64,000 bases of DNA from Burkholderiales bacterium RIFCSPLOWO2_02_FULL_57_36 (GTDB lineage: Bacteria; Pseudomonadota; Gammaproteobacteria; Burkholderiales; Burkholderiaceae_D). Location: positions 1 through 64,000 of the forward strand of contig MESE01000101.1 in the NCBI GenBank assembly GCA_001770855.1, written 5' to 3'. The notes below the pieces were generated by a model. That model saw nothing but the letters and a program-made list of their open reading frames with translations, did no database searches and had not been told where the DNA came from. The stretch's first letter is position 1, and each line of letters opens with the position of its first letter. Position numbers and translations under genes: made by a program. Below are positions 8,079 through 54,388 of the stretch, piece after piece.

Positions 8079-8080
8079 CG

Positions 8081-9051: not shown

Positions 9052-9077
9052 TCAAGGAAATTCAGTTTATCCATCCT

Positions 9078-18417: not shown

Positions 18418-19611
18418 TCAATCCATTGCTTCGAGCGGTTCTGCCGGACGGGTTGTGCCGAGCCCCGCCATCAATGATTGGCGCACGGCCGCGTCCTGTG
18501 GCGCCACACCGAAGCCGGTCATCATTCCCTGTGCATCGTAGAAACGGCAGATAGTACGGCCGTTTGCTGTTTCAGCATGCCAGTCGCCGATGCCGGCCGC
18601 ATGCATTGCCGCAGGAAGCAAGGCCAGTGGATAGCATGGCGTCTTGACGATAACTGGTGCCGGTTTGAACTCGATTTGCGTAAGTTGTCCAGTCAAAGTT
18701 CGAGCGATCGCGCGTGCTGCCGTCATCATCGGCGCGATATACGGCAGGATCTGCGTGATGCCGGGTGACATCGTGTATTCGGCGCAATCGCCCAGCGCGT
18801 AGATATCCGGTGCACTGGTTTGGCCGGCGGCATCGACCAGAATGCCGCGGCCGGTTGCCAGCTTTGCGATTTTTGCCAGTGCCAGGTCGGGACGCAACCC
18901 GACTGCCGATAATACGACATCCGATTCGACGGTATGGCCGTCGGCAAGCGTGATGCGCAACCCGTCGGCTGTCTTATCGATGCGTGCCGCGGTCATGCCA
19001 AGATGCAAGCTTATGCCCCGCGCTTCCAGTGCCTTCTGCAAGCCTTGCGACAAGGCCGGTGCGGCAAGCGCAGCCAACGGCAGCGGATTCGGATCGATCA
19101 GCGTTACCGTGTGACCCGCACCAGCCAGATCATCGGCGAACTCGCAGCCGATCAAGCCGGCGCCGAGAATGGCGACACGTGCCGCCGAGGAAATTATTCG
19201 CGAGCGGAAGTTCGCGTAATCGGTGACATGGTTGACTGACAATACCTGATCCGCGGCATCCCCATCGATATTCAGCCGGATCGGCTGCGCGCCGACCGCA
19301 ATCACGAGCTTGCCGTACTCAAGTTTTCCGGCGCTGCTATCGATGATTCTGTTCACACTATCGATACTTGTTACTTGCGTGACCGCCACAATTTGCGCAT
19401 TCAATTGCGCTGCCATTTGTGCAGCAGTTTGTGTCACGAGTTGGGCCGGCAGCTTGTTTTGGGCAAACGCATTGGACAGCATCGGTTTGGAATAGAAACC
19501 GCCGTCATCGGCAGTGATGATGGTTAACGGGGTGCTCTTGTCGAGCTTGCGGAATTCCCGCGCGACCGTATAGCCGGCAAGACCTGCGCCAATGATGGTG
19601 ATGGGTTTCAT
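18418..19611 (-). CDS. Rubredoxin-NAD(+) reductase-like FAD oxidoreductase
   Basis: The 397-residue flavoprotein has an N-terminal FAD site (ITIIGAGLAGYTVAREFRKL) and FYSKPMLSNAFA. A second Rossmann segment follows (RVAILGAGLIGCEFADDLAGAG) and then the FAD motif YALGDCAEY. It moves electrons from NADH to rubredoxin. Directly upstream in the same direction are rubredoxin and rubrerythrin genes, which makes this role likely. It is the last gene of that operon. Confidence 0.9.
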   Translation of the reverse strand: MKPITIIGAGLAGYTVAREFRKLDKSTPLTIITADDGGFYSKPMLSNAFAQNKLPAQLVTQTAAQMAAQLNAQIVAVTQVTSIDSVNRIIDSSAGKLEYGKLVIAVGAQPIRLNIDGDAADQVLSVNHVTDYANFRSRIISSAARVAILGAGLIGCEFADDLAGAGHTVTLIDPNPLPLAALAAPALSQGLQKALEARGISLHLGMTAARIDKTADGLRITLADGHTVESDVVLSAVGLRPDLALAKIAKLATGRGILVDAAGQTSAPDIYALGDCAEYTMSPGITQILPYIAPMMTAARAIARTLTGQLTQIEFKPAPVIVKTPCYPLALLPAAMHAAGIGDWHAETANGRTICRFYDAQGMMTGFGVAPQDAAVRQSLMAGLGTTRPAEPLEAMD

Positions 19612-19682: not shown

Positions 19683-19847
19683 TTAGATTTCGACCATCTC
19701 GAAATCGGCTTTGGCCACACCGCAATCCGGGCATTCCCAGTCGGCCGGTATGTCATTCCAGCGGGTGCCGGCTGCAATGCCTTCTTCGGGCATGCCGACG
19801 GTTTCATCGTAGACAAAACCGCAAACGATACATTGATATGTCTTCAT
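19683..19847 (-). CDS. rubA: Rubredoxin
   Basis: The 54-residue protein begins [15 protein letters not shown] and has both iron-binding pairs, Cys6-x2-Cys9 and Cys39-x2-Cys42 (ECPDCG). The typical [11 protein letters not shown] lies between. It is a one-electron carrier between the reductase (18418-19611) and the rubrerythrin (19905-20396). The gene lies 57 bases after rubrerythrin and 71 before the reductase, all in the same direction. Confidence 0.95.
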
Positions 19848-24466: not shown

Positions 24467-25336
24467 ATGCTAAGTTCCTTGGATAGAAATTTCATTTTCA
24501 GTACTATTCAGAAGTGCCATCTTTCGAACACGGCAGAGGACCTTGAAGAAGTCATTACTTATTTTGTAGGAAGATTCATTCCGCACAAGATAGGCGTCTG
24601 CGGAATCGCTAACGTCGAAACCAAAGCACATTCGCATTGCCTTGAATTCGGTTCCACGCATGGCGTGTTGAAGGCAATGCCTCCGACATTCTGCTTGAAG
24701 AACAATCTGCTGTTGCCGCTGTGGAGAAAAAAACGGATCCCGATATACAGCACCATCGCGGACTTGAGCGATCTCCAATTGACCGAAGATCAGAAGATAT
24801 GGCGTGAAAAGCTGGTCAGCCATGGCATCACGAACCTGGTCATGCACGGTGTGCGCGACATTTTCGGCGGATTCGCAAGCTTTTTCTACCTGTGCTCGGT
24901 GCCAGAACCAATGACGGATCAACAAAGCCTGATTTTTTCGATGCTCGCCCCGCACTTGCACCATGCATTGTTGAGCGTCACGCATTTGAATACGGCGAAC
25001 ACGATGAAGGATGAAGGGCATTCTATGCATGCCGCGGCGCTATCGGCAGGATCCAGACCCGCTATTGATAAACCCGATTGGCGGTTGACGCCACGTGAAT
25101 CGGAAATCCTGAAGTGGATCTATTACGGGAAGACGAATCCGGAAACCGCCATGATACTTGGCATCAGCGAACTGACGGTCCGCAATCACATACAAAACCT
25201 GATGCTGAAACTCGGTGTCGGGAATCGCACTCAGGCGGTGGTCAAGGCAATGCAGAACAACTTTTTTGTCGAACAGAATCAGTATCAGAACGGTAGCGCG
25301 GAAACCGCCGGCGCGCTGCCCAGAATGGTTGAATAG
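24467..25336 (+). CDS. LuxR-type regulator, EpsA-like
   Basis: The 289-residue protein has an N-terminal sensor-like part of about 190 residues. A LuxR helix-turn-helix follows at about 205-265 (LTPRESEILKWIYYGKTN, LGISELTVRNHIQNLMLKLGV, NRTQAVVKAM). The layout matches the EpsA-type regulators of exosortase and polysaccharide loci in beta-proteobacteria rather than acyl-homoserine-lactone receptors. It is the nearest regulator to the lipid-type cluster at 25.8-37.5 kb and may bind the bipartite motifs at 27803 and 31176. This link is inferred from position. Confidence 0.82.
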   Translation: MLSSLDRNFIFSTIQKCHLSNTAEDLEEVITYFVGRFIPHKIGVCGIANVETKAHSHCLEFGSTHGVLKAMPPTFCLKNNLLLPLWRKKRIPIYSTIADLSDLQLTEDQKIWREKLVSHGITNLVMHGVRDIFGGFASFFYLCSVPEPMTDQQSLIFSMLAPHLHHALLSVTHLNTANTMKDEGHSMHAAALSAGSRPAIDKPDWRLTPRESEILKWIYYGKTNPETAMILGISELTVRNHIQNLMLKLGVGNRTQAVVKAMQNNFFVEQNQYQNGSAETAGALPRMVE

Positions 25337-25351
25337 GTGTCCGGATACTTA

Positions 25352-25686
25352 GAGCCCGCGCAGGAATAAGTTAGGTAATTTTGCTGGCCGTACCGGGCGC
25401 ACTGCTGCGTTGTCCGTCGCTAGCAGTGCTCGCACTGCGCCGGCATCCTCTCCCTCGATCCCTCTCCACTTGTGGAGAGGGAAGCTATTTGCACCCTTCT
25501 CCCTCTGGGAGAAGGGATGGGGAAGAGGGAAAGCGCCTATGCAGGCGTATCGCCTTGCAAGGCGATACCGTTACGCAGGCGAAGGGCATGCCCTTCGAAA
25601 CCCCTGCTGCACCATCCCGCTACGCCCGAAGGAAGTCCCCTTGGGGGACGGCCGCCAAATTGCCTAACTTATTCCTGCGCGGGCCC
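25352..25686. repeat. Dispersed repeat element with long terminal inverted repeats, copy 1
   Basis: The outer ends, CCCGCGCAGGAATAAGTTAG and its inverted mate CTAACTTATTCCTGCGCGGG, match over about 38 bases with few changes. Inside lie the palindromes TATCGCCTTGCAAGGCGATA and GAAGGGCATGCCCTTC, which are also in copy 2 at 46325-46574 (one base changed in the second). This copy carries a nested GGAGAGGG/CCCTCTCC hairpin cluster at about 25448-25530. No protein is encoded in 25337-25785. Confidence 0.85.
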
Positions 25687-25785
25687 TTACAGCTTATCGA
25701 CCACATTAATCCCGCAAATCATGCCGCGCCCTTGCGCGGTTCGGACCAGCGTGAAAGATTGAACTGAATCGTGACTGCCGATGTA

Positions 25786-26742
25786 TCAGGAGGTCGAGGC
25801 CATCGCAGTTGCCACGGTCGGTTGTGGTGAGACGTTTCCCCCGTCCATCCATGCAAGCACCAATTTCGCAAACGGTTCACTTGCCTCCAGTTCCGGCGAA
25901 TGTCCGGCGTGCTCGAAAAAACTGTGCCAGATTGCGTGCGGAATCTGCGCGCCAATAGAGTGCTTGTCGCTGTGGCGATGGGTACGATCGGCGCATCCCC
26001 ACGTCATCAGCACCGGCTGTCTGATTCGTACCGGCGGCGGTGCGTATCCGCTGAACCATTTTTGCCACAACGATCCCAGGCACCAGAATGCGCCACGCGC
26101 CAATGCCGCCTGAAAAGTCGGCACGAATTCGGAGTATCGGTTCTTGGCCATCGCATTCTTGTACCACATGAAGCCCATCCGGTTGGTGGCCCAAGCCATC
26201 ACCGCCTGACCCAACACAGGGCGCGTCAGAATTCCCTTGAAGCTGACGAACTTCGCCCAGTCGACTTGCTGTTCCCATGACGGACACTGCCATAGCATCA
26301 GTTTCGCCACCTTGTCCGGGGTTCGCGTCGCAATCTGCAATGCGATATGCGCCCAGACGCAGGAGAACGCCAGCAGATAAGGGCCTTCATCGAGTGCGTC
26401 CAGCAGTTGTTCGATGGAGTGCAGGTACTCGTCGAAAGTGAATCTGAAATTGCGCTTCGGACAGGAAAAACCGAATCCCGGCGGCTCGAAAACTACCACC
26501 CTGGCATGTGGTTCGAGCAAAGCGATCAATTGATCGAAATGTTCCAGCACACTGGGCGGATCGCACACGATAACTACGGTCGGCTTCCCTGCCGACGCCA
26601 CACCCGCCACGCGGGCGCGGATGATGGCTCGCTCCACTTCGACAAAACGTACATCGGGACGCGTATGTGCAGCCCATCCGGTGGCGATCTTGCCGGTTCG
26701 GTCATGCAGTCGCATTGAATCGATCCAGGTGGCATCTATCAT
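25786..26742 (-). CDS. Alpha/beta hydrolase of the lipid-type cluster
   Basis: The 318-residue alpha/beta hydrolase has the strand-turn PTVVIVCDPPSV and VVVFEPPGFGFS, a nucleophile elbow AFSCVWAH near residue 130, and a C-terminal HAGHSPELEAS with the catalytic His. The elbow is not the usual GxSxG: Gly is replaced by Ala and Val around the Ser, with Cys next to it. It lies 41 bases after the second hydrolase in the same direction, so they form one transcript. It may release or trim the acyl product of the cluster. Confidence 0.8.
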   Translation of the reverse strand: MIDATWIDSMRLHDRTGKIATGWAAHTRPDVRFVEVERAIIRARVAGVASAGKPTVVIVCDPPSVLEHFDQLIALLEPHARVVVFEPPGFGFSCPKRNFRFTFDEYLHSIEQLLDALDEGPYLLAFSCVWAHIALQIATRTPDKVAKLMLWQCPSWEQQVDWAKFVSFKGILTRPVLGQAVMAWATNRMGFMWYKNAMAKNRYSEFVPTFQAALARGAFWCLGSLWQKWFSGYAPPPVRIRQPVLMTWGCADRTHRHSDKHSIGAQIPHAIWHSFFEHAGHSPELEASEPFAKLVLAWMDGGNVSPQPTVATAMASTS

Positions 26743-26783
26743 GTTCGGCGATCTTCTTGGTGAGTGTGAATGTTGGTTTTTGT

Positions 26784-27722
26784 TTACACGGGGCGAAGAG
26801 TTGGCGGAACCGGCACTTGCCGGATAAATGACGCTTCATGTCCACCATCGGAAAAAATCGTTGCGCCGGAAGGGGTCGCTTCAGCCAGAAACCGGCATAT
26901 CTGCCCCATCACGTCTGGATCTTTCATGATGTGGTTATGGCGCAGACCTTTGGTCTTGACGAAGCAACTTTGCGGCCATTGCTGCTTGAGCCATTCGGCG
27001 TTCGCAACCGGAACCATGGGGTCCTTCTCATCATGAATAATCAATGTCGGGTGCTCTTGCGGCGTGGTGTAAAGCGAGTCCCAGTCAGAACCATAGCGGC
27101 TGCTGCTCGGCTCGCCATAATCCCAGACCAGCTTGCGCATCAGCGCGATCGCGTTCCTGCTGATGCCCATGTAATCGCCAAACAGATGAGTGTGGTCGAT
27201 GACGCGAGTCCAGGGCGACAACAAGATCAATCGTTCGGTGGGCAGGCCGCGCTTGGACGCCATCACCAGCGCGCCGGCCGCCATCGAGTGGCCGACGATC
27301 GCATGCACCGGCCCGATCGTATTGAGGGCGGCATGGATGGAATCGGCGAATCCCATCGGCGTCGTAAAGTGTTCCGGATGCAATCCATGTCCCGGCGCCT
27401 CATAGCAAATCACCTGGAAACCCAGCGCAAGCAAGCGGTTGGCGAGCGGCACGAATGCCGATGGGTTGCCGTTCCAGCCGTGAACCAGCAATACCGGCTT
27501 TGCGTCCGAGTCTCCCAGGCGCCATGCCCGTAGCGGATGCGAAGGATACGGAATGCTGAATGCGGTGGCGTTGGTAAAGAACGCACGTTCTTCCGAGGTC
27601 GGCGTTTTGGTTTTTCTTGAAGGAACGGTATAGAGACGCTGCGCAAGCTTTGCGCTTGAGCGCGCCGACGTGAAATTAAGCAGTGCAAATGCGGCGCGTA
27701 TCGGTGCGAGTTTTAGTTGCAT
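26784..27722 (-). CDS. Alpha/beta hydrolase, divergent from the lipid-type cluster
   Basis: The 312-residue protein has VLLVHGWNGNPSAF (oxyanion hole), nucleophile Ser in IVGHSMAAGAL, Asp in IIHDEKDPMVP and His in GLRHNHIM. It is a serine esterase or thioesterase-like hydrolase. The start at 27722 has AAAGGA nine bases upstream; a TTG start 18 bases earlier would swallow that site. Its promoter lies in the 172-base gap shared with the AMP ligase fusion gene, so the two operons are probably regulated together. Confidence 0.85.
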   Translation of the reverse strand: MQLKLAPIRAAFALLNFTSARSSAKLAQRLYTVPSRKTKTPTSEERAFFTNATAFSIPYPSHPLRAWRLGDSDAKPVLLVHGWNGNPSAFVPLANRLLALGFQVICYEAPGHGLHPEHFTTPMGFADSIHAALNTIGPVHAIVGHSMAAGALVMASKRGLPTERLILLSPWTRVIDHTHLFGDYMGISRNAIALMRKLVWDYGEPSSSRYGSDWDSLYTTPQEHPTLIIHDEKDPMVPVANAEWLKQQWPQSCFVKTKGLRHNHIMKDPDVMGQICRFLAEATPSGATIFSDGGHEASFIRQVPVPPTLRPV

Positions 27723-27802
27723 GTTTGGCCGTCCTTTCAATCAATGCGAAACGCTCGACGTGTTAGTCGGAGCAGATTACACCAATGGAAACCGCATCGC
27801 AC

Positions 27803-27838
27803 TGGTATGAAACAACCAGGGGGAAATAACCATATACA
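27803..27838 (+). promoter_or_regulatory. Bipartite motif before the fusion gene
   Basis: GGTATGAAACAACCA, 11 bases, then CCATATACA. The same two blocks with the same 11-base gap recur at 31176-31211 before the first desaturase. The first block has a TGGT/ACCA dyad. The second could serve as a -10 region (TATACA). It may be a regulator site plus promoter; the 56 bases to the start codon fit this. Confidence 0.65.
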
Positions 27839-27894
27839 CGTTTGTCGTTCCACTTAAAAATCATGGGGTGCGTAAATGCCATGGGAGAGAAACG

Positions 27895-30800
27895 ATGAAA
27901 TCGGAAACAAATTTTCTGCAAATGCAGAACGATCCAACCTTCGAACGCTTGTTCGCGGCCATGTGCTCGCATCGAGGAAATACGGCCTTTGTTTACGAAC
28001 AGGATGGCATCACGCAATCCGTAACCTATGCCGGATTGCAGGCGCGCGCCGAACGTGCCGCCGTGCGCCTGCAAGTGGAGCTCGGAACCGCGAACCGGGG
28101 ACGCTTTGTCGGACTCCATCTCGACAATTGCCTGCAATGGCCGATTTTATTCTGGGGCTTGTTGATGGCAGGCTATCGCCCGCTGCTGCTGGATGCGCGG
28201 GTATCGGGCGACGCGCTGCACGATCTGCTGTCAAGGGCGCAGGCGGCGGCGTTGCTGACCGCGCAAGGCGACGAACCGGCCGGTGGCGTACGCCAGCTTT
28301 CCGCCGCACAGATCGTTAGCGGCGATGAATATCCTCATCTGCAACCGCAATGGGAAGACCATGTCGCATTGTGCACATCGGGCACCGGCGGGGCGGCGAA
28401 ACTTGTCGTGTATCGTGGTTCGTCCGTCGTCTCCAATGTGCTCGGTGCGCGCGAAGCGATGCGGGAATCTCCTTATCTGATGCGGCCGCATACGGTCAAG
28501 CTTGCATTCGCTCCATTCCATCATGTAATGGGTTTGCTCACATTGTCCTTGTACAACGCGATGGGCAAGACCATTGTCCTGCTGCCGGATCGCACGCCAG
28601 CTACCATCAAGCGGGTCTGCGTGGAGCATGGCGTCAACCTGATCTACGGCGTGCCGCTGATGTGGAACGCGATGGCGGCCAAAATCCGCACCGAAGTCGC
28701 GCGCAAACCTTTGCCTGCTCGCATCGTGTTCCGGACGATGTGCGGTCTCAGCTGGATGGCGCAGACGTTGATGCCGCATTGGGGACAGCAATTCGCGCAA
28801 AAGGGGCTGTTCCGCTCGTTTCACAAAAAGGCGATGGGTATCGATATCTGCCTGGTCTCCGGCGCCGCGCCGCTGCCGCGGCAGACGTTGCGCACGTTGA
28901 CCGCGATGGGCTTTCCTTTACTGTCCGGCTACGGGATGACCGAGGCATGCGTGATCAGCTGCGATGTCGGCCGCGGTTTGCGGCCTCGTCTGCATGGCAG
29001 CGTCGGACGCGCATTCGCCCGATCCGAAGTGCGGGTGGCGCCCGAGACCGAACGCGGCGCTGCCGGCGAAATTCAGGTGCGGGGCGAATCCCTTTATAGC
29101 TACGACCTGCGCAACGGGCAACTGGTGCCGCCGGAGCGGCCCGGCGGATGGATGGCAACCGGCGATGTAGGGCGGGTTGTCGACGGCCACATTTATATAG
29201 TCGGCCGGTCGAAGGACACCATCGTGCCGGCCACCGGCGAAAACGTGTATCCGGAACAGGTGGAGGAGGCATTCGCGGGGTTGCCTGGAGTCGAAAACTT
29301 TTCCGTCCTCGGCCTTGCCGGCAACAACGGCACCGAGATGGTCGGCCTGATTGTTTATCCCGCAGATGGCAGGCAGGATGGCGGCCATCTGGCGCAGATC
29401 GCGCGCCAGGTGGCGGGCATGAACGAGCGCCTTGCGATGCACAAGCGCGTCACGCGGCTGCTGGTATCGGATGCGCCGCTGCCCGCGACGACGACAATGA
29501 AGATCAAGCGCCAAGTCTTGAAGAAGGCGCTGGAGTCGGGGCAGTGGCAGTATCGGGAACTTTCGCTTTCCACGCTGCTGGCCGAGCCGGTGGCCGTTTC
29601 CGTAGCCACGGCCAACACCATCGAGAATGCGGCAGGGGTCAGGGACAAGGTGCGGGCGCTGGTATCCGATGCATTGCAAGTCGGCCCCGAGACGGTAAAA
29701 GATGAATCACATCTGGTCTACGATCTCGGCGGAGACAGCCTGAAGCTGCTTGAACTGCTGATGCGGGTTGAACAAACCTTCGACCTGTTCGATGAACGCG
29801 AAGCCCTGCGCGCCTGTCTGTCGGTGCGCGAGTTGAGCGCCATGGTTGAAGACCTGCTGGCCGGCGGCCATCCGCTGAAGACGGCGCAGCAGCCGTCAGT
29901 GCGGCATCCGATATTGCGCATAGAGGACGATCCGCGCTTTGTCGAGATGGCGCAGCGGCTGGCGGCGGCCGGGGACGTCAATCCCTACTTCATCGCCCAT
30001 GATTCGACTGTGCGCGACACTTCGAAGGTGGCGGGGATCGAACTGATCAACTTCGCATCATACAACTACCTCGGCCTGTCGGGTCATCCCCGGGTCGTCG
30101 CGGCAGCCCAGGCGGCGGCGGAGGAATTGGGCACATCGGCCAGCGGCAGCCGCCTGTTGACCGGCGAGAAAAGTCTCTATCGGCAGCTGGAGCGCGAGAT
30201 CGCCGAATGGAAGCAGGCGGAAGATGCGCTGGTGCTGGTTTCCGGACATGCGACCAACGTATCGTTCGTCGGAAATTTCTGCGGTGAAGCGGACTTGATC
30301 CTGTACGACTCGTTATCGCATAACTCGATAGAGCAGGGATGCCGGCTGTCGCAGGCTGAAAGCCGCGCGTTTCCGCACAACGACGTGCACGGATTGGAGC
30401 AGATACTCAAGGCAGTTCGCCACAAATACGAAAAGGTGCTGATTGTCGTCGAGGGCGTCTACAGCATGGATGGCGACGTCGCTCCGATCCGGGAGTTCGT
30501 CGCGCTCAAGCACAGATACGGCGCGTTCTTGATGGTCGACGAAGCGCACTCGGCCGGTGTGTTGGGCGAGTGCGGCAAGGGAGTGGACGAATATTTCGGC
30601 CTGGCCGCCGATGATATCGATATCCGCATGGGAACCTTGTCGAAGGCGCTCGGTTCATGCGGAGGATATCTGGCGGGACGCGCAGACCTGATCAATTACC
30701 TGCGTTATGTGTTGCCGGGCTTCGTGTTCAGCGTCGGCATCAGCCCGCCGAATGCAGCCGCTGCGCTCGAGGCGCTGCGCACCTTGCGCGCGGAGCCGCA

Positions 30801-31164
30801 GCTGGTAAGGCGTTTGCACGAAAACATCGAGTGCTTCATACGCGAAGCAAGGCAGCGTGGTTTCGATACCTGCGGTGCCGCCGTGAGCCCGGTGACACCG
30901 ATCCTGGTGGGCGCCGAAGACGATGCATTCCGGCTGTGCGCGCAGTTGCGGGAGCGGGGGGTTTTTGTCGCGCCGGCGGTCTTTCCGGCAGTCCCGAAAG
31001 GCCAGGCCCGACTGCGTTTTTGCGTGACCAGCGACCACCAGCCCGAGCAGATCACGCATGCGCTCGATGCGCTTGTCGGCGCAATGGAAGAGATCGGCTG
31101 CCTGCGATCATCGCAGAAACCGGCCGGCCGGATCCAGGAGGCGCAAGCGGCAGCAGCGGCGTGA
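27895..31164 (+). CDS. AMP ligase-ACP-alpha-oxoamine synthase fusion
   Basis: The 1089-residue protein has three parts. Residues 1-560 are an acyl-adenylating enzyme (CTSGTGGAAKLVVYRG near 162, GYGMTEA near 347). Residues 575-660 are an acyl carrier protein with the phosphopantetheine Ser615 (YDLGGDSLKLLEL). Residues 690-1070 are a PLP enzyme of the KAPA synthase/serine palmitoyltransferase family (GTSASGSRL, DSLSHNSIEQGC, DEAHSAGVLG, Lys917 in GTLSKALGS). It should activate a carboxylic acid, load it on its own ACP and condense it with an amino acid, losing CO2, to give an alpha-amino ketone. The start at 27895 follows GGGAGAG. Which acid and which amino acid are used cannot be read here. 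Confidence 0.9.
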   Translation: MKSETNFLQMQNDPTFERLFAAMCSHRGNTAFVYEQDGITQSVTYAGLQARAERAAVRLQVELGTANRGRFVGLHLDNCLQWPILFWGLLMAGYRPLLLDARVSGDALHDLLSRAQAAALLTAQGDEPAGGVRQLSAAQIVSGDEYPHLQPQWEDHVALCTSGTGGAAKLVVYRGSSVVSNVLGAREAMRESPYLMRPHTVKLAFAPFHHVMGLLTLSLYNAMGKTIVLLPDRTPATIKRVCVEHGVNLIYGVPLMWNAMAAKIRTEVARKPLPARIVFRTMCGLSWMAQTLMPHWGQQFAQKGLFRSFHKKAMGIDICLVSGAAPLPRQTLRTLTAMGFPLLSGYGMTEACVISCDVGRGLRPRLHGSVGRAFARSEVRVAPETERGAAGEIQVRGESLYSYDLRNGQLVPPERPGGWMATGDVGRVVDGHIYIVGRSKDTIVPATGENVYPEQVEEAFAGLPGVENFSVLGLAGNNGTEMVGLIVYPADGRQDGGHLAQIARQVAGMNERLAMHKRVTRLLVSDAPLPATTTMKIKRQVLKKALESGQWQYRELSLSTLLAEPVAVSVATANTIENAAGVRDKVRALVSDALQVGPETVKDESHLVYDLGGDSLKLLELLMRVEQTFDLFDEREALRACLSVRELSAMVEDLLAGGHPLKTAQQPSVRHPILRIEDDPRFVEMAQRLAAAGDVNPYFIAHDSTVRDTSKVAGIELINFASYNYLGLSGHPRVVAAAQAAAEELGTSASGSRLLTGEKSLYRQLEREIAEWKQAEDALVLVSGHATNVSFVGNFCGEADLILYDSLSHNSIEQGCRLSQAESRAFPHNDVHGLEQILKAVRHKYEKVLIVVEGVYSMDGDVAPIREFVALKHRYGAFLMVDEAHSAGVLGECGKGVDEYFGLAADDIDIRMGTLSKALGSCGGYLAGRADLINYLRYVLPGFVFSVGISPPNAAAALEALRTLRAEPQLVRRLHENIECFIREARQRGFDTCGAAVSPVTPILVGAEDDAFRLCAQLRERGVFVAPAVFPAVPKGQARLRFCVTSDHQPEQITHALDALVGAMEEIGCLRSSQKPAGRIQEAQAAAAA

Positions 31165-31175
31165 TGGCTACGCAC

Positions 31176-31211
31176 CGGTATGAAATAACCATTACGAAGC
31201 TCCCATATACA
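31176..31211 (+). promoter_or_regulatory. Bipartite motif before the first desaturase
   Basis: GGTATGAAATAACCA, 11 bases, then CCATATACA, matching the site at 27803-27838 in both blocks and in spacing, with one base changed. It begins 12 bases after the stop of the fusion gene and 112 bases before the next start. This suggests that the desaturase and the genes after it have a promoter of their own, under the same control. Confidence 0.65.
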
Positions 31212-31323
31212 TAACAAATCGCCGCATTGAAAATAACCAACGATGACACCCAACGTTGAAGGACTGCTCCGCACGCGGCCTTCTTGAATGATTGTTTACA
31301 CCGAAAAAATGCACGGAGGCTCA

Positions 31324-32304
31324 ATGGAGACACTGCAATCGCCATTAACGCAGGAAGATGATGCAACGCGGTCCGGAGCACAGTCTCCGGACGCCGGATC
31401 GGATGCGATCGTCAAACTGGACCAGAGGCTGGCGGCAGCGGTAACCCTGGTGCCGCTGCTGGGAACGCTGGCGGCGCTCGCATTATGGATTGCCGGCTAC
31501 GGACCCGGCTGGGTCGAAATTACCGCGTTCGCGATGCTCTATTTCGCGACTGCACTCGGCCTGGAAGTCGGCTTTCACCGGCACGTGACGCATAAGGCGT
31601 TCAAGGCGAAGCCCTGGGTCAGTGCGGCGTTGATCGCAATGGGTTCCATGGGCGTGCACGGGCCGGTGATCTGGTGGGCTTCAACGCACCGGCGCCACCA
31701 TTCAAAGAGCGATGTCGCCGGCGATCCGCATTCGCCGCACCTGTCCGGCAGCGGCCTCCGGGCACGTCTGAAAGGTTTGTATCACAGCCACATGGGCTGG
31801 TTGTTCGAGGGCGGCTCAACTCGTCCGTCCGGCTGGCAGCAATACGTTCCGGATTTGTACAGAGATCCGATTATCTACACGCAGCACATGCGGTATTACC
31901 GTTGGGTGTTGATCGGACTGGTATTGCCCACGGTCCTCTGCGGCGCCGCTTCAGGCTCATGGATGGGTGCGCTGCTGGGTTTTCTGTGGGGTGGCCTGGT
32001 GCGCATTTTCGCGGTAAGTCACTGTATCTGGGCCTTGAATTCGTTGTGCCATGTGATCGGCAAGCGCGACTTCAAAACCACGGCAAACGATCAGAGCAGA
32101 AACAGTTTGCTGCTGGCGATCCCGACATTCGGGCAGGGCTGGCATAACAACCATCATGCGTTTCCGGCTTCCGCGTTCACCGGGCTGCGCTGGTGGCAGA
32201 TAGATCCGGGCGGATTGTTCGTGCGCTTGCTGCAGCTTCTGCGGCTTGTGTCGGACGTCAATCGTCCCACCCCGGAGGCAATCGCCCGCAAGCGTGCCGC
32301 CTAA
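31324..32304 (+). CDS. Membrane fatty acid desaturase 1
   Basis: The 326-residue protein is of the acyl-CoA/acyl-ACP delta-9 desaturase type. All three His boxes are present: HRHVTH (85-90), HRRHH (122-126) and HNNHH (273-277). About four membrane helices are seen. GGAGG precedes the start at 31324; an earlier ATG at 31288 has none. It inserts a double bond, or in some clusters a triple bond, into an acyl chain. A free ACP gene follows after 42 bases, so the substrate is probably ACP-bound. Confidence 0.92.
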   Translation: METLQSPLTQEDDATRSGAQSPDAGSDAIVKLDQRLAAAVTLVPLLGTLAALALWIAGYGPGWVEITAFAMLYFATALGLEVGFHRHVTHKAFKAKPWVSAALIAMGSMGVHGPVIWWASTHRRHHSKSDVAGDPHSPHLSGSGLRARLKGLYHSHMGWLFEGGSTRPSGWQQYVPDLYRDPIIYTQHMRYYRWVLIGLVLPTVLCGAASGSWMGALLGFLWGGLVRIFAVSHCIWALNSLCHVIGKRDFKTTANDQSRNSLLLAIPTFGQGWHNNHHAFPASAFTGLRWWQIDPGGLFVRLLQLLRLVSDVNRPTPEAIARKRAA

Positions 32305-32346
32305 GAAGTTCCGACCATTGCCACACCATCAACAGGAGGTTTAAAA

Positions 32347-32613
32347 ATGAGAACTGGAATCATTGAAAATAGGACCAGCGCCGATATTTCCGTTTGGATG
32401 AGCGACTATTTGGCGAGGCAACTCAGCATTGCTCGCAATGCGGTGGATGTCCGCCGGTCGTTTGACCAATACGGCATCGATTCCGCCTCCGCCCTGCAAA
32501 TGGTCGGCGACCTGGAGGATTACCTCGGACATGAATTGTCGCCGAGCCTGCCATATCAGTATCCGACCATCGAGTCGTTGTCGGATGCGCTGGCCAACAT
32601 GGCAAACCCCTAG
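32347..32613 (+). CDS. Free acyl carrier protein
   Basis: This 88-residue ACP carries the phosphopantetheine attachment Ser46 in YGIDSASALQM. AGGAGGT precedes the start. The sequence between the desaturase and the methyltransferase suggests that it carries the acyl chain for both. It is distinct from the ACP domain built into the fusion enzyme. Confidence 0.92.
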   Translation: MRTGIIENRTSADISVWMSDYLARQLSIARNAVDVRRSFDQYGIDSASALQMVGDLEDYLGHELSPSLPYQYPTIESLSDALANMANP

Positions 32614-32625
32614 GAGGATCAAGCG

Positions 32626-33549
32626 ATGATCATCGAAACAGAAAACGCAGCGAGCACCACAACCCGGCAAGGTGCCCAGTACGGCGTGTCGGCTGAAGCG
32701 ATTCAATACCATTACGACATCGGCAACGAATTTCTTGCATTGGCGCAGGAGGGCGGGCGCAACTATTCGTGTGCGATGTACCAGGACGGCGATACACACG
32801 AACAGGCGCAAATCCGCAAGCTCGATTATCACATCGATCAGATCCGTGCCCGCGGCGCCGAGCGCGTGCTCGACATCGGCTGCGGCTGGGGCGCGCTGGT
32901 CAATCGTCTGGCGATCGAGGCTGACGTGGACAAGGTCGTCGGCCTTACGTTGTCGAAGGAACAGCTCAAGTTCATCGGCGATACCTATCAGCACCCGGGC
33001 ATTGACGTGCACCTGCAAAACTGGCAGGACTATCAGCCCGAGGAACCGTTCGACGGCATTATTTCGCTTGGCGCATTCGAACACTTCGCCAAGATAGATG
33101 AAGACAAGGTCGAAGCCTACCGCCACTACTTCAAGAAGTGCCACGAGTTTTTGAAACCGGGCGGACGAATGTCCCTGCAGACGATGGGATACGGCGATGT
33201 GCCGCGCGATCGGCAGCACTCCGATCTGTTTATTGCGCGTGAGGTGTTTCCTGAATCGGATCTGCCTTATCTTGCGGATATCGTGCGTGCATCCGAGATG
33301 TTGTTCGAAGTGGAGCTCGTGCGTAACGACCGCAAGGATTATGTCAAAACCATGCGCTCCTGGTTCGAAAATCTGCGCGCCAACCGCGAAGAGGCGCTCA
33401 AGCTCGCACCGCTGGATGTCGTCACGCGTTATGAGCGCATGTACCGCACGATGAGCTATTCGTTCGATCTTGGCGCATTTACGTTGTACCGCATCACGTT
33501 CCGGCGTATCGAGCAAACCCGGATCGGCGACGGCTATCACGCCGGATAG
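32626..33549 (+). CDS. Cyclopropane-synthase-like SAM methyltransferase
   Basis: The 307-residue protein matches the C-terminal catalytic domain of cyclopropane fatty acid synthases and mycolic acid methyltransferases. Evidence is HYDIGNEFLALA, YSCAMYQDG, the SAM motif VLDIGCGWGALVN (81-93) and SLGAFEHFA. The N-terminal domain of true cyclopropane synthases is missing. It should methylate or cyclopropanate a double bond made by the desaturases. Twelve bases separate it from the ACP gene and twelve from desaturase 2, so it is in one operon. Confidence 0.9.
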   Translation: MIIETENAASTTTRQGAQYGVSAEAIQYHYDIGNEFLALAQEGGRNYSCAMYQDGDTHEQAQIRKLDYHIDQIRARGAERVLDIGCGWGALVNRLAIEADVDKVVGLTLSKEQLKFIGDTYQHPGIDVHLQNWQDYQPEEPFDGIISLGAFEHFAKIDEDKVEAYRHYFKKCHEFLKPGGRMSLQTMGYGDVPRDRQHSDLFIAREVFPESDLPYLADIVRASEMLFEVELVRNDRKDYVKTMRSWFENLRANREEALKLAPLDVVTRYERMYRTMSYSFDLGAFTLYRITFRRIEQTRIGDGYHAG

Positions 33550-33561
33550 GCGGCCGCCATC

Positions 33562-34554
33562 ATGGAAGGAATATCAGCGGATAAAGCCGGGAGCGTCGAA
33601 CCGGTCGTGGGCAGCGGAGAATTTCCGGCGGTAACGCTGGCGTCGGATCACCTCTCCGCTGCATCGGTCGCACGGCATTTTGGCGTTGCGCTCGTTCCAT
33701 CTGTCGGCACCATCGCAGCCGTCAGCCTTTGGGCTGGCGGGATTGGTCCGGGCGTGCAGGAGTTGGTGCTGTTGGTGGTGTTTTATGCTCTCAACATCAT
33801 GGGCATGGAGATCGCGCTGCACCGCTACTTCGCGCATCGCTCGTTCAAAGCGGCCAATTCGGTGAAGATCGCGTTGGCGATACTCGGCTCGCTGGCCTAT
33901 ATGGGGCCATTGATGTGGTGGGTGGGGATCCATCGGTTGCACCACGCCAATAGCGACAAGCCGGGCGACCCGCACACGCCGCAACTGGGCGGCCCGGGTT
34001 TCCGCGGCAAAATCCGGGGCCTGTTGCATGGCCACGTCGGATGGCTGTTCGATCCGGCCTCGGCGCGGCCGAAAGGCTGGAGTCAATGCTCCGTCGACAT
34101 GTATCGCGACCCGACCTTGCTGCGGATTCATCATGCTTACGACTACTGGTTGGTGCTCGGCCTGCTGCTGCCGACCGTGATCGGCGGACTGCTGTCCATG
34201 TCGTGGACAGGCGCGCTGCTCGGTTTTCTGTGGGGTGGCACGGTGCGGATATTTCTGGCCACAAATGCGGTCTGGGCGGTCAACTCGCTCGGACATTCGG
34301 TCGGCGGCCGCCGGCCGTTTTCCAGAGAAGATCACAGCCGCAATACGTTCTGGATCGCGATTGTGACACTCGGCGCCGGCTGGCATAACAACCACCATGC
34401 TTTTCCTCAATATGCGATGACCGGCTTTCACTGGTGGCAGATCGATATATCGGGATGGGTCATCAGCGCACTCGAACGGACGGGTTTGATCTGGGATGTG
34501 CGTCGGCCCGACCATGCCGCCATTAATGCCAAGAAAAGCGACGTGTCGAAATAA
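33562..34554 (+). CDS. Membrane fatty acid desaturase 2
   Basis: The 330-residue paralogue of desaturase 1 has His boxes HRYFAH (87-92), HRLHH (124-128) and HNNHH near 277. The two proteins share layout and many residues (GDPHTP/GDPHSP, WWVGIH against WWASTH) and probably arose by duplication. Two different desaturases in one operon suggest two double bonds, or a double bond then a triple bond, as in polyyne pathways. Confidence 0.92.
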   Translation: MEGISADKAGSVEPVVGSGEFPAVTLASDHLSAASVARHFGVALVPSVGTIAAVSLWAGGIGPGVQELVLLVVFYALNIMGMEIALHRYFAHRSFKAANSVKIALAILGSLAYMGPLMWWVGIHRLHHANSDKPGDPHTPQLGGPGFRGKIRGLLHGHVGWLFDPASARPKGWSQCSVDMYRDPTLLRIHHAYDYWLVLGLLLPTVIGGLLSMSWTGALLGFLWGGTVRIFLATNAVWAVNSLGHSVGGRRPFSREDHSRNTFWIAIVTLGAGWHNNHHAFPQYAMTGFHWWQIDISGWVISALERTGLIWDVRRPDHAAINAKKSDVSK

Positions 34555-34592
34555 ATTTTCGCGACGATGATTTCAGACTGTTAGGAGTTCCA

Positions 34593-35573
34593 ATGGAGCA
34601 TCGAAAAATCTTCGACGTGCGGGTGCATCTGTTGCCGCCAATCGTCTCGCGGCTGGTCTGGAAGTCATACCAGCGTGAGGCTTGGTCAATCCGTTACCAG
34701 TTACTGGCCGATGAAGCCATCGAGTTCCTGAAAAACGCCGGCGTAGAAAAAGTAGCGGGCATTTGTTATACCAGCATGCCGGGAATGGCGTCGTTCCTCA
34801 ACGACTTCATGGCCGAGTTGTGGCAGCGTCATCGGAAAATGCTGGTTCCGTTCGGTACGATATTCCCCGGCGAACGCGATTGTCAGCGTGAAGTCTCACG
34901 GGTTCTCGATGAACTTGGTTTCGCCGGTATAAAAGTTCACTGTCATCTTCTCAAGATGGCGCCCGATGACGACGCACTCGCGCCGATTTTCGAAGCTGTC
35001 GCGGAGAGCGGCAATGTACTCAACATACATTCCGGAACCGTTTCAAAAAACAATGGCGCACTGGAGGAAATCAGGCGCTTCTGCAACGTCGACCGTTTCC
35101 GCCGCGCGATGCGCCGTACGCCCGATATAAAAGTCATTGTGCCGCATATCGGCTACGACGAAGTGCAGGAATATATCGACCTGATGGACGAATTCCCCAA
35201 CCTTTATTTCGACACCGCGATGGCGATCGGCGGTCACCGTGTTGCAATCGGCGAGCAACTGCCGGATGTGCGCCCGCTTGAAATGACGCGCTACCCGCCT
35301 GGACATCATCCGCATCTGCCTGCACCGTGGAAGCCGGCGCTTGAGCAACTGGTGCCGCAGATGATTGCCCATCCAACGCGCTTCCTGTATGGCAGCGACT
35401 TTCCGCACCTGCCGTATCAATGGAATTTTGAGATCGAACAGCTTGCACGTTATCTGCCGGCCGAAGTTCTGGAGCAGGTACTGTGGTCGAATGCGGCCGG
35501 GTTGTTTGCCGATAATGCGGCGGCTGACACCGATTCGAAAAAAATTATTACCGAGGGAGTGCACGCGCTATGA
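34593..35573 (+). CDS. Amidohydrolase family 2 protein
   Basis: The 326-residue TIM-barrel metal hydrolase shows FDVRVHLLP near the start, GIKVHCHL, LNIHSGT, VIVPHIGYD and YGSDFPHLP. The first motif is DxRxH rather than the usual DxHxH, so one metal ligand is changed. Relatives are decarboxylases or amide/lactone hydrolases. Its stop overlaps the start of the acyl-AMP ligase gene (ATGA). It may decarboxylate or open an intermediate of the pathway. Confidence 0.85.
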   Translation: MEHRKIFDVRVHLLPPIVSRLVWKSYQREAWSIRYQLLADEAIEFLKNAGVEKVAGICYTSMPGMASFLNDFMAELWQRHRKMLVPFGTIFPGERDCQREVSRVLDELGFAGIKVHCHLLKMAPDDDALAPIFEAVAESGNVLNIHSGTVSKNNGALEEIRRFCNVDRFRRAMRRTPDIKVIVPHIGYDEVQEYIDLMDEFPNLYFDTAMAIGGHRVAIGEQLPDVRPLEMTRYPPGHHPHLPAPWKPALEQLVPQMIAHPTRFLYGSDFPHLPYQWNFEIEQLARYLPAEVLEQVLWSNAAGLFADNAAADTDSKKIITEGVHAL

Positions 35574-37453
35574 CGCAATGTCCCATGAATAACGCGGACG
35601 ACGGAACGGCAGTCGAGTTTGCCAACTACGTCGAGGTTTTGCGGCACCGCGCCCGCTGTAATCCAGATCTCCAAATCTACACCTTTCTGGAGCATGGCGA
35701 TGGCGCGGAGCGGACGATCACTTGCGCTGAACTGGACGAACGCGCGCACCGGACCGCCGCCGCGCTGAGCGAACGCGTCAGTCCCGGCGAGCGGGTGCTG
35801 CTTTTGTATCCGCCAGGGATCGACTATATAGTCGGGCTTTTCAGTTGCATGTATGCGGGTGTGATCGCGGTGCCCGCTTATCCGATCGAACCGGCGCAAG
35901 TCGAGCGCACGTTGCCGCGGCTGCTCGGCATCATCAACGATTGTCATGCGAGGGCGATTCTGACCACCGCGGCAGCACGCGAGCAGGCGATGCGCTTTCT
36001 GTCCGGCTCACGCTCAATCGCTCAGTTGCCCTGGATCGCCACTGACGAACTGGGCGACAGTGTTACATCCCGTCCGGTATCGGCGCCGACCCCGGACAAC
36101 ACGCTGCCGGTCTATCTGCAATACACTTCCGGATCGACCGGAGCGCCGAAAGGCGTCATGGTCAGCCACCAGAATTTGCTGCATAACTCGGTGCTGATTA
36201 AAAGCCGCTTCGAGCATAGCGCCGCCAGCCGCGGCGTGATCTGGTTGCCGCCGTATCACGACATGGGCTTGATCGGTGGAATCCTGCAGCCGCTGTATGC
36301 AGGCTTTCCGGTGGTTCTGATGTCGCATATCGATTTTCTCAAGCATCCGTTGCGCTGGCTGCGCACCATCAGCAGGTTTCGGGCGACCACCAGCGGCGGA
36401 CCGAATTTCGCTTACGAGATGCTTGCATCGATGAGAATCACCGATGCCGATTTCGAGAAGCTGGATCTGAGCTCATGGGACGTCGCATTTACCGGCGCCG
36501 AGCCGGTGCGCGCGAAAACCTTGCGCGCCTTCGCGCAACGTTTTGCGCCGTGCGGTTTTCGTTCGGAAGCGTTTTATCCATGCTATGGCTTGGCGGAACA
36601 TACGCTGTTTGTCACCGGTGGCGAGAAATCACGCGCGCCGGTACTGGCGACAATAGGTAGCGGCGCGGACTACACCGCTGCCGATGGAAATGGTGAAGCC
36701 ATGCGGGATGAAACAAAAACCGTGGTCGGCTGCGGCCACACGGCGGACAGCAGCCGTCTGCTGGTGGTCGATCCGCAGACGTGCGAGCCTTGTGCCGATG
36801 GCCAGGTCGGCGAACTCTGGGCACAGGGGCCGAGCGTGGCGATGGGATACTGGGGCAAACGGAGGTTGAGCCAGCAGACGTTCCGCGCACGACTCAAGGG
36901 TTCGACCGGATCATTCCTGAGAACCGGCGATTACGGCTACCGGATCGGCGCCGAATTTTTCATCACCGGACGTCTGAAGGATATGATGGTGATACGCGGA
37001 GCCAATCATTATCCGCAAGATATTGAGGCGACCATTGAGGAGATCGATACCGATATTTTCCGGCCAGGCGGTTGTGCGGTGTTTGCGCTGGAAGCGAGTG
37101 TCGCGCCGCGCGTGGTAGTTGTGCGCGAGGTGCGTGCACGCTACATCAAGCTGATCGCGCAACAGGGCGACGAAGGCGCGTTGATGTCCAGTCCGTCGGC
37201 AGACGAAATTTTTGGCCGCTTACGTCGCGCGGTCAGCCAGCGGCACGGTATCGCCGTTTCCGATATCGTCTTGGCGCCCCCGGCCACGGTGCCGAAAACG
37301 ACCAGCGGGAAAACCCAGCGCCATTTGTGCCGCTCGCTATTCGTCGAAGGATCCTTGCTGACGGTCACGCGATGGAGTGCTGATGAATTGGCCGTCGGCG
37401 GACGCGCGGTGAAGAACGAATCGGTGGAGATCGGGGAATGCTCGCCTGTTTGA
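35570..37453 (+). CDS. Fatty acyl-AMP ligase (FAAL)
   Basis: The 627-residue enzyme has YTSGSTGAPKGVM (185-197), WLPPYHDMGLIGGIL, TSGGPNFAYEM, TGAEPV and YGLAEHTLFVTGG, the signatures of fatty acyl-AMP ligases. It activates a free fatty acid as acyl-AMP and passes it to an ACP, most likely the free ACP at 32347. It is the last gene of the operon. With the fusion enzyme the cluster has two separate activating enzymes. Confidence 0.92.
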   Translation: MTQCPMNNADDGTAVEFANYVEVLRHRARCNPDLQIYTFLEHGDGAERTITCAELDERAHRTAAALSERVSPGERVLLLYPPGIDYIVGLFSCMYAGVIAVPAYPIEPAQVERTLPRLLGIINDCHARAILTTAAAREQAMRFLSGSRSIAQLPWIATDELGDSVTSRPVSAPTPDNTLPVYLQYTSGSTGAPKGVMVSHQNLLHNSVLIKSRFEHSAASRGVIWLPPYHDMGLIGGILQPLYAGFPVVLMSHIDFLKHPLRWLRTISRFRATTSGGPNFAYEMLASMRITDADFEKLDLSSWDVAFTGAEPVRAKTLRAFAQRFAPCGFRSEAFYPCYGLAEHTLFVTGGEKSRAPVLATIGSGADYTAADGNGEAMRDETKTVVGCGHTADSSRLLVVDPQTCEPCADGQVGELWAQGPSVAMGYWGKRRLSQQTFRARLKGSTGSFLRTGDYGYRIGAEFFITGRLKDMMVIRGANHYPQDIEATIEEIDTDIFRPGGCAVFALEASVAPRVVVVREVRARYIKLIAQQGDEGALMSSPSADEIFGRLRRAVSQRHGIAVSDIVLAPPATVPKTTSGKTQRHLCRSLFVEGSLLTVTRWSADELAVGGRAVKNESVEIGECSPV

Positions 37454-46306: not shown

Positions 46307-46324
46307 AGCTTCGTCTTGGACTTA

Positions 46325-46574
46325 GGGTTCGCGCAGAAATAAGTTAGCATTTTTGCTGGCCGTCCCCCAAGGGGACTTCCTCTGGGCGTACCTTGGCGCG
46401 CTGCTGCGTTGCCCGCCGCTTGCAGTGCTCGCACTGCGGCGCGTCGGGCGCCGATGCAGGCGCATCGCCTTGCAAGGCGATACCGTTACGCAGGCGAAAG
46501 GCATGCCCTTCGAAACCCCTGCTGCACCATCCCGCTACGACCGCCAAAATACTAACTTATTTCTGCGCGAGCCC
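46325..46574. repeat. Dispersed repeat element, copy 2
   Basis: The outer ends GCGCAGAAATAAGTTAG and CTAACTTATTTCTGCGC are inverted mates. The core, with ATCGCCTTGCAAGGCGAT and AGGCATGCCCTTCGAAACC, is the same as in copy 1 at 25352-25686. The left arm contains CCCCCAAGGGGACTTCC, which in copy 1 is found only in the right arm, inverted. It encodes no protein. Confidence 0.85.
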
Positions 46575-49128: not shown

Positions 49129-49541
49129 GCTATTGCCTCTACTCTGTCATTGAACATCGCGCATCGGTGCATAACGACTGTCACCAGATCGCCCGGTATA
49201 TCGGCGCTATTGATCTGCCTCATCTGCCACCGACTGCAGCGCCAGCCACCAGCGCAGCCGGACAGGTGCAGGCATTCCAGACAAAGCCGCCGGTCATCCT
49301 GTTCCCGGTCACGGCCTACCAGTCTTGCAGCCATCGCTTCGGCTTCATCCATGTTCAAGCCGCGATCAGTGAACAATCCCAGCCGCGCCGTGAAGGTGTC
49401 ATTTTCCGATACTGATTTTTGAAAAGGCTCAGGGCAGGCACCTACAAAAACTACAGAAACCCCTTGGTCGTCATTTCGTAGTTTTTGTAGGGTAGGTGCC
49501 GGGGCGCTTTCCACTTTTTTTAAGCGTGCCAGCCAGTTCAT
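49125..49541 (-). CDS. Cys-rich hypothetical protein of the integrative element
   Basis: The 138-residue protein ends with a possible zinc site, RRLCLECLHLSGCAGGWRC. Both ends overlap neighbours by four bases (ATGA with the primase upstream and with the 214-aa gene downstream). The role is unknown; a small DNA-binding or replication accessory protein is possible. Confidence 0.75.
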   Translation of the reverse strand: MNWLARLKKVESAPAPTLQKLRNDDQGVSVVFVGACPEPFQKSVSENDTFTARLGLFTDRGLNMDEAEAMAARLVGRDREQDDRRLCLECLHLSGCAGGWRCSRWQMRQINSADIPGDLVTVVMHRCAMFNDRVEAIA

Positions 49542-51937: not shown

Positions 51938-52086
51938 GCCAGCCCCCGGAAAAAGCTTGCCAGCAGTTGCGCAAGACGGATGAAAGCCGCCCTGCACCGG
52001 GTGCAGAATGCTATGATCTTGGTGGAGTGTTTGGTGTCCGCCGTGGTGGTCTCGAAGCCCCCGGCGGATTCTTTTGTGCGGGTCAT
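51934..52086 (-). CDS. 50-aa protein between alpA and the primase
   Basis: The frame runs from ATG at 52086, overlapping the stop of alpA, to TGA at 51934-51936, overlapping the start of the primase. Both junctions are ATGA. The product (MTRTKESAGGFETTTADT, then KIIAFCTRCRAAFIRLAQLL) ends in an amphipathic helix. It resembles the Ash-type small proteins found at this place in P4-like elements. Confidence 0.7.
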   Translation of the reverse strand: MTRTKESAGGFETTTADTKHSTKIIAFCTRCRAAFIRLAQLLASFFRGLA

Positions 52087-52289
52087 TGTCCGGCACCTCC
52101 CGCACGCTGTGCAATGAAGGCTTCGACTTCCGCCGCATCCCATACCGTGACAGATTCACCCAGCTTGAACGGCTGGGGAAATTTGTGTTCCCGTGTCCAG
52201 CGCCAGATAGTCGCCGGACTGACAGGCAATAGCCCTTTACTCTTTTTGGTGGTCGCAATATCTGCAACCCGGATAACTCGCTGTGACAT
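52083..52289 (-). CDS. AlpA-family regulator
   Basis: The 68-residue protein has the AlpA/MerR-like winged helix (VIRVADIATTKKSKGLLPVS, ATIWRWTREHKFPQPFKLG, WDAAEVEAFIAQR). AlpA proteins switch on integrase or excision genes of such elements. AAAGG lies before the start. It opens the long overlapping operon of the element. Confidence 0.88.
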   Translation of the reverse strand: MSQRVIRVADIATTKKSKGLLPVSPATIWRWTREHKFPQPFKLGESVTVWDAAEVEAFIAQRAGGAGQ

Positions 52290-52466
52290 GGTCTAACCTT
52301 TCATAATCGTTTTGTTTGGAACGATTGAAGAATAGGTATGACTAGCAGTTAAAAATAGATGAAAGAGTTTCTAAAACAGGTGAAAGGGTTAGCTATAAGC
52401 GCCAATAAACAGGTGGTATGAATAGAGAAAACCGTTATCTGGCGTGGCTTTTATGGGTGACGGTCT

Positions 52467-52964
52467 TTAATTTGATTTTGGTCGCCCGCCGGACTTATCC
52501 CAATTGCACAAAGTCGTTATACGTTCATTTGCAGCCGTGGAAAGTGGATAGCCGCTTTGTTTTAACCAGTCTGTTAACTGCTCTTTAATTGGTGCATTGC
52601 TCGGATTGTTACTAACTGCCCGCCATGCCTGAAGTGCAATGTCCAGTTCTTCAGGGTATCGCAGGTCGTCGACATCAAATCCGTCCCATACACTTTGATT
52701 TTCTTGAATCACGGTTTTTTGAATAGGCAAAGATTCGTTTAAAAGACTTTGATGAAATGCATGGTCTTTTTCATGATGCATTCTCAACGAGTACCCAATA
52801 CAACCGCCCAATAAAGCAGCGATAGCTCCAAGCACGCTAGATATGGTGCTTTCGACATTTCCTGTGTAAAAAAACCTGGAAACTACCAATGCTACAGCCA
52901 CCGCCGTAACCACGTAAAGTGTGGTGATAGGAAATGCTGTTTTAGACAATACATACTTTTCCAT
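52467..52964 (-). CDS. Small membrane protein of the integrative element
   Basis: The 165-residue protein has two membrane helices near the N-terminus (ITTLYVVTAVAVALVVSRFF, SVLGAIAALLGGCIGYSL) and a soluble C-terminal part. The start at 52964 has GGGG before it; the longer frame to 53072 overlaps the integrase. GC content is low for the region. No family is recognised. It may be cargo. Confidence 0.6.
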   Translation of the reverse strand: MEKYVLSKTAFPITTLYVVTAVAVALVVSRFFYTGNVESTISSVLGAIAALLGGCIGYSLRMHHEKDHAFHQSLLNESLPIQKTVIQENQSVWDGFDVDDLRYPEELDIALQAWRAVSNNPSNAPIKEQLTDWLKQSGYPLSTAANERITTLCNWDKSGGRPKSN

Positions 52965-53064
52965 AATTACCCCTTCCCCATTTAAATCGGAAACCATGCC
53001 GGCAGAATAAAGGGGCAAACTCTGTTTTCCCGCCGTCGCGGTAGGCATGGTTAAACTGGTTATA

Positions 53065-54282: not shown

Positions 54283-54388
54283 GTCGCCCCCTTTGACGGC
54301 ATCTCGTTTTCACGTTTTTAAAAGTACCGTCAGAAATACCGTCAAATTGACGGTATCTCATGTTATCGGGTGAAATGGCGTAAGACAA

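Follow-up and report, generated by a model that had tools for sequence, protein, structure and literature searches.

The locus described here is a cluster of nine genes in contig MESE01000101.1 of Burkholderiales bacterium RIFCSPLOWO2_02_FULL_57_36 (assembly GCA_001770855.1), occupying positions 25,786-37,453 of the 64,000-nt stretch of DNA that was analysed (the window). All nine open reading frames are intact. They form two divergent groups with 127 bp between them, a pair on the minus strand and a run of seven on the plus strand. The minus-strand genes encode two alpha/beta hydrolases, hydrolase A (25786..26742; Pfam Abhydrolase_1, E = 2.6e-10), a possible release enzyme or acyltransferase, and hydrolase B (26784..27740; Abhydrolase_1, E = 3.8e-14), a possible thioesterase. 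The plus strand starts with a fusion protein of 1098 amino acids (27868..31164) comprising an AMP ligase, an acyl carrier and an alpha-oxoamine synthase (Pfam AMP-binding, PP-binding and Aminotran_1_2). It continues through membrane desaturase A (31288..32304; FA_desaturase, E = 1e-18), a free acyl carrier protein (32347..32613; PP-binding, E = 3.9e-13), a CMAS-type S-adenosylmethionine (SAM) methyltransferase that may donate a cyclopropane or a methyl group (32626..33549; CMAS, E = 1.1e-59), membrane desaturase B (33562..34554; FA_desaturase, E = 5.6e-21) and an Amidohydro_2-type protein (34593..35573; PF04909, E = 2e-28), and ends with a fatty acyl-AMP ligase (FAAL; 35570..37453; AMP-binding with a DIP2-like AMP domain). 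The plus-strand genes are separated, in order, by 123, 42, 12, 12 and 38 bp, and the last two overlap by 4 bp. Both desaturases have three histidine boxes and they are 46% identical. Families were assigned by profile searches with Pfam and NCBIfam, and signature motifs were located by regular expression and by eye. The coordinates and profiles agree with the two divergent groups and the named families of the original prediction, made from the sequence and its reading frames; its gene list lacked the adjoining LuxR-type gene on the plus strand (24467..25336; GerE domain, E = 3e-19). The genes make up one cluster with high confidence.

The oxoamine-synthase part of the fusion matches NCBIfam models of the BioF/KBL/SPT type and keeps the TLSK lysine and the DEAH motif. 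The carrier serine is kept in both carriers of the cluster, and the genome has three matches of the phosphopantetheinyl-transferase type. The ligase part has an altered P-loop, TSGTGGAAK, which gave no match to the consensus expression; the expression for motif A8 matched neither this ligase nor the FAAL. The matches of the fusion ligase to solved structures are all weak; they comprise CoA ligases for fatty acyl, malonyl, succinylbenzoate, coumarate and benzoate substrates, and the best is the fatty acyl-CoA synthetase FadD13. Among plasmid-borne relatives with more than 90% coverage the nearest comes from Rubrobacter; it combines a ligase, a carrier and an acyltransferase in one chain and is 27% identical over fusion residues 19-654. 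Its layout suggests that the ligase and carrier of the fusion may form an acyl-loading unit. An amino ketone is the natural reading of an acyl carrier fused to an oxoamine synthase, and with moderate confidence the fusion is predicted to make one from a fatty acid.

The separate FAAL matches the NCBIfam FAAL models below their curated cut-offs. Its P-loop and A10 lysine are present, and FAAL-like proteins are its nearest matches among solved structures, with 7r7g at the top (E = 2.8e-150). The CMAS protein has the SAM motif, YSCA and FEH, and aligns over nearly its whole length with its nearest solved structures, MmaA4 and CmaA2. Alignment to Escherichia coli Cfa begins only at residue 119, so the protein is without the N-terminal domain of Cfa. 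The mycolate enzymes of this family are said to work on chains bound to a carrier, and products of the family include both cyclopropanes and methyl branches. For the label of methyltransferase given earlier, cyclopropane/mycolate-type CMAS enzyme is the more exact one. Since the family has both kinds of product, the possible branching of the chain in the original prediction is one of two options, the other being a cyclopropane.

The remaining enzymes are less readily placed. Hydrolase A is weakly similar to the O-acyltransferase OlsI (E = 3.7e-7, far below the cut-off) and has no match in plasmid records at E ≤ 1e-8. Hydrolase B is 24% identical (E = 1e-15) to a hydrolase of a polyyne-like Streptomyces locus; 40 plasmid records also match it, which marks a broad family. 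In the amidohydrolase-like protein an arginine replaces the first histidine of the HxH motif (DVRVH, as against DIHVH in a Tsukamurella homologue that is 33% identical). The other likely metal residues, H146, H185 and D269, are kept in both proteins. It also matches 5-carboxyvanillate decarboxylases weakly, and has no match at E ≤ 1e-30 in the other genomes of the 392 in the family.

A 41-nt direct repeat (76%) occurs twice on the plus strand, once upstream of the fusion gene (27798..27838; core GGTATGAAACAACCA) and once upstream of desaturase A (31171..31211; core GGTATGAAATAACCA). Its 15-nt core, GGTATGAAAYAACCA, has two matches in the 5.4-Mb assembly at up to one mismatch, both exact and both within the cluster; 0.010 exact matches are expected from base composition (57% GC assumed), and the reversed control pattern gave one match in the same genome. 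At up to three mismatches the window contains six matches against a shuffle mean of 1.64. Since 2 of 100 shuffles also reach six, only near-exact matches to the core are meaningful. The confinement of this motif to two cluster sites in the genome suggests that the cluster genes may be co-regulated. The LuxR-type gene, whose top NCBIfam model is EpsA (124.7 bits, cut-off 170), is by its position the natural candidate regulator. Scans of promoters (8 against a shuffle mean of 6.5) and terminators (13 against 15.9) were not above shuffles. Profiling of ten flanking proteins found no capsule or export genes and no ketosynthase domain.

An element resembling a miniature inverted-repeat transposable element lies at 25351-25687 of the window, with 34-nt inverted ends that are 91% complementary and 269 nt between them. 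Compared with its own genome it gives 95 matching pieces on many contigs, but many of these are short or overlap one another. Apart from the element itself, the longest copy aligns over query positions 4-345 at 93% identity, and the window holds additional pieces at 46320-46543.

No full-length relative of the fusion was found in any set searched; these sets overlap and sample partially. The 391 other genomes of the family gave no full-length match. Three others of the 392 family genomes, one other of 100 relatives and 16 plasmid records (six of them retrieved for reading of their neighbourhoods) match only in the oxoamine-synthase part or over ≤39% of the query. A scan of genome contigs with six short fusion peptide patterns, a weak negative, reached three loci in the oxoamine-synthase part only, at ~37% identity. 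Among 369 genomes of the class there is one other match, locus L024, where a protein of 1114 amino acids (6476-9820) has the same three-part layout and an oxoamine-synthase domain 48% identical to that of the cluster. Its ligase differs, however, in being of the FAAL type (41% identical to the separate FAAL of the cluster), and it is not surrounded by an acyl-tailoring cassette. Its neighbours, judged by eye, are reductase-, phosphatase- and GNAT-like genes, and it is perhaps a fused starter enzyme for sphingolipids.

In a tree of oxoamine synthases the fusion domain belongs to a group that takes in 11 of the 14 rows (support 96/95), together with enzymes linked to polyketide synthases (PKS), either as neighbours or as part of the PKS protein. 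This group stands apart from E. coli SPT, a single SPT whose branch is flagged as very long, and from a BioF-like protein of the same genome; the tree does not resolve the branching inside the group. The input comprised 15 loci, of which 12 gave a row of more than 300 amino acids (L008, L009 and L028 were dropped). The PKS linkage was profiled in L027 (KS-AT-carrier-oxoamine synthase), is annotated in L026, L028, L029 and L030 (L028 without a tree row) and was judged by eye for the large neighbours in L014-L017; the annotation of L031, also a member of the group, shows no adjoining PKS. The fusion domain is 44-52% identical to the PKS-linked enzymes and 36% identical to E. coli SPT. Some of the PKS-linked oxoamine synthases lie next to capsule genes, in pairs of the kind called rkpA/rkpG or wcbR/wcbT. 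These capsule loci have a type I PKS; by Pfam the cluster contains no ketosynthase domain, and its chain would come from a fatty-acid ligase.

The CMAS gene was followed in the same way. A tblastn search of 72,556 plasmid records reached seven at E ≤ 1e-50, and among 369 genomes of the order two match at E ≤ 1e-68, the source genome not counted; in a set of 369 from the phylum the source genome alone matches. In all nine loci reached (L018-L022, L035, L036, L050 and L051; positions in the GC-rich loci are taken from tblastn) a carrier gene adjoins the CMAS gene and a FAAL gene lies within ~4 kb. Seven also have one or two desaturases, and the other two, both from Sphingobium, have none at E ≤ 0.01. 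The loci were picked by similarity of the CMAS protein, so these counts show what this subfamily travels with and not how common the arrangement is. A close parallel in layout is plasmid 2 of Polaromonas sp. JS666 (L018), where FAAL, desaturase, carrier, CMAS enzyme and desaturase form a single run at 34-48% identity to the cluster (44% for the carrier against the free carrier). Thus the enzyme set, described earlier as unusual, is singular in its pairing with an oxoamine-synthase fusion, but the FAAL-desaturase-carrier-CMAS part recurs.

The partners of this part differ. In Polaromonas it is followed by two ketosynthase proteins (profiled) instead of being paired with a fusion. An A-T-C protein resembling a nonribosomal peptide synthetase (NRPS) lies ~3.4 kb past the FAAL in Thalassospira (profiled), and a cytochrome P450 and a hydrolase are annotated nearby both there and in Pseudonocardia, whose annotation also shows a type I PKS at a greater distance. 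In Sphingobium indicum an annotated acyl-homoserine-lactone (AHL) synthase adjoins the carrier; the gene is called hypothetical in the other Sphingobium (L050). The carrier-CMAS-FAAL runs of the two Sphingobium loci, which are on plasmids (L051, 5890-9770; L050, 5884-9645), are preceded by the gene in this position and lie beside a P450 and a TonB receptor, and the loci perhaps make a signal with a modified acyl chain. L035 and L036 contain large frames that are PKS-like by eye, and the Tistrella and Rhodococcus records carry no annotation. With its varying partners, the group of FAAL, carrier and CMAS genes is possibly a portable acyl-tailoring cassette.

Parts of the cluster correspond to published systems. 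The alkyne cassette jamABC, as described in PMC8406139 and PMC11837247, consists of a FAAL, a desaturase and a carrier, and by Pfam and NCBIfam all three are present. With polyyne clusters the cluster has in common the FAAL, the carrier, desaturases and a hydrolase, and the FAAL, carrier and desaturases of the polyyne-like Streptomyces locus likewise match its own. Bacterial polyyne clusters, however, are defined in PMC8406139 by genes that include three desaturases, a rubredoxin and a thioesterase. The cluster has two desaturases and no rubredoxin (the genome has two matches, the nearer at 19701-19838, ~6 kb outside), and adds the CMAS enzyme and the oxoamine-synthase fusion. A polyyne cluster is therefore rejected on desaturase number and on the lack of a rubredoxin within the cluster; the parts that the original prediction names for polyyne clusters are present, but the published gene set as a whole is not.

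In Caulobacter a dedicated acyl-ACP synthetase, a carrier and SPT cooperate, according to PMC9386255. The same paper describes the rhodobacterial trio AasR-AcpR-SPT (the operon compared was that of E. coli BL21(DE3)). Ligase, dedicated carrier and oxoamine synthase are all present in the cluster, where they are fused into one protein and joined by desaturases and a CMAS enzyme. In a search for ketoreductase and N-acyltransferase genes, six query proteins taken from loci of the sphingolipid type have no match inside the cluster at E ≤ 0.01, and match the window only at 5.8 kb and 8.2-8.8 kb. With neither enzyme found in the cluster, and with the oxoamine-synthase domain apart from E. coli SPT, a plain sphingolipid locus ranks below the pathway proposed next. 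The imidacin-type pathway, in which a SAM enzyme makes the cyclopropane, is not a match since it is PKS-based with a urocanate starter. The open-access literature searched yielded no paper describing the whole gene set, in line with the original prediction, whose author knew of no such pathway, and none pairing a FAAL with a cyclopropane-fatty-acyl-phospholipid synthase or with a serine palmitoyltransferase. The modules of the cluster are known ones; their combination was not encountered in the collections and literature searched.

The reading favoured here is a specialised-metabolite cluster in which the cassette and the fusion together would make a fatty alpha-amino ketone; this is proposed tentatively, at a little under an even chance. 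The substrates, the step order, the amino acid and the product are as we infer them. In favour are the families and signature residues, the recurring group of FAAL, carrier and CMAS genes, the Rubrobacter relative, the fusion of L024, the Caulobacter precedent, the motif before the fusion and desaturase A, and the three matches of the phosphopantetheinyl-transferase type. The FAAL would activate a fatty acid and load it onto the free carrier, where the bound chain would be the substrate of both membrane desaturases and of the CMAS-type enzyme. The result would be an unsaturated, possibly acetylenic, chain with a cyclopropane or a methyl branch. Tailoring on the carrier is favoured by the features of the CMAS protein, which is nearest to the mycolate enzymes and has no counterpart of the N-terminal domain found in the phospholipid-acting Cfa of E. 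coli. In the simplest form of the transfer, a hydrolase would release the chain and the ligase domain of the fusion would reload it onto the fused carrier; alternatively it might be handed over directly. The oxoamine-synthase domain would then condense the chain with an amino acid, releasing CO2 and giving a 2-amino ketone, and the amidohydrolase-like protein might serve a late step or be a non-hydrolytic accessory. Confidence in the exact product is low. Several points weigh against such a pathway. For a single chain one of the two separate activating systems would be redundant, the P-loop of the fusion ligase is altered and the ligase lacks a close relative whose substrate is known, and neither hydrolase is a clear thioesterase. 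Moreover the search turned up no relative that has the whole set, so that conservation cannot confirm that the two halves cooperate.

Two independent loading systems would be expected of a two-chain, ceramide-like lipid, in which the fusion builds a base resembling ketosphinganine from a common fatty acid and an enzyme of the hydrolase fold puts the unusual second chain from the FAAL cassette on the amine. The weak resemblance of hydrolase A to OlsI and the reductase- and GNAT-like genes seen by eye beside L024, the nearest fusion architecture, point the same way. Yet the OlsI similarity is far below the cut-off and the six sphingolipid queries found neither an N-acyltransferase nor a ketoreductase in the cluster, and this alternative is considered unlikely. 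The grouping of the fusion domain with oxoamine synthases that adjoin PKS and capsule genes would fit a structural envelope lipid or capsule anchor, like the products of those pairs, in place of a secreted metabolite. Against this, capsule and export genes are lacking among the ten profiled flanking proteins, the full-length fusion occurs in none of the 391 other family genomes and a LuxR-type gene adjoins the cluster; an envelope role is quite improbable. The range of the weak matches of the fusion ligase to solved structures, from fatty acyl to malonyl, succinylbenzoate, coumarate and benzoate CoA ligases, would fit the loading of a non-fatty acid such as an aryl acid, the fatty chain joining elsewhere. 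This is very unlikely, since the best solved match is FadD13, the Rubrobacter relative, whose ligase and carrier stand in the same order, has an acyltransferase at its end, and no gene forming an aryl acid was recognised in the cluster by Pfam.

The fatty alpha-amino ketone may, more boldly, represent a new lipid class, unsaturated (possibly acetylenic) and bearing a cyclopropane or methyl group. Its chain would come from a portable cassette of FAAL, carrier, CMAS enzyme and, in most cases, a desaturase, with an output enzyme that varies among bacteria: the oxoamine-synthase fusion here, a PKS in Polaromonas, the NRPS-like A-T-C protein in Thalassospira and the AHL-synthase-like protein in Sphingobium. 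This extension is possible but rather doubtful. If true, it would add a class of amino-lipids to bacterial chemistry and show that one acyl-tailoring cassette can serve very different chain-ending enzymes. The carrier-CMAS gene pair would then be a handle for finding such clusters, and the fusion, as a single chain, a compact means of producing long-chain amino ketones. Should it be wrong, there would still be an orphan lipid pathway here whose ligase is unusual.

Some further features of the window lie outside the cluster. The rubredoxin gene before it stands beside a gene for a rubredoxin-binding reductase (18418-19611), both on the minus strand, and the pair could be a putative electron donor for the cluster. 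Near the start of the window is a transposase-like gene with an rve-type integrase core (3309-4613). Towards the other end, a phage-type integrase gene (53065-54282) lies beside a tRNA-Leu gene (54457-54543) and a DUF3987/Toprim gene (49538-52267), and the section 49538-54543 has the look of a tRNA-associated genomic island.

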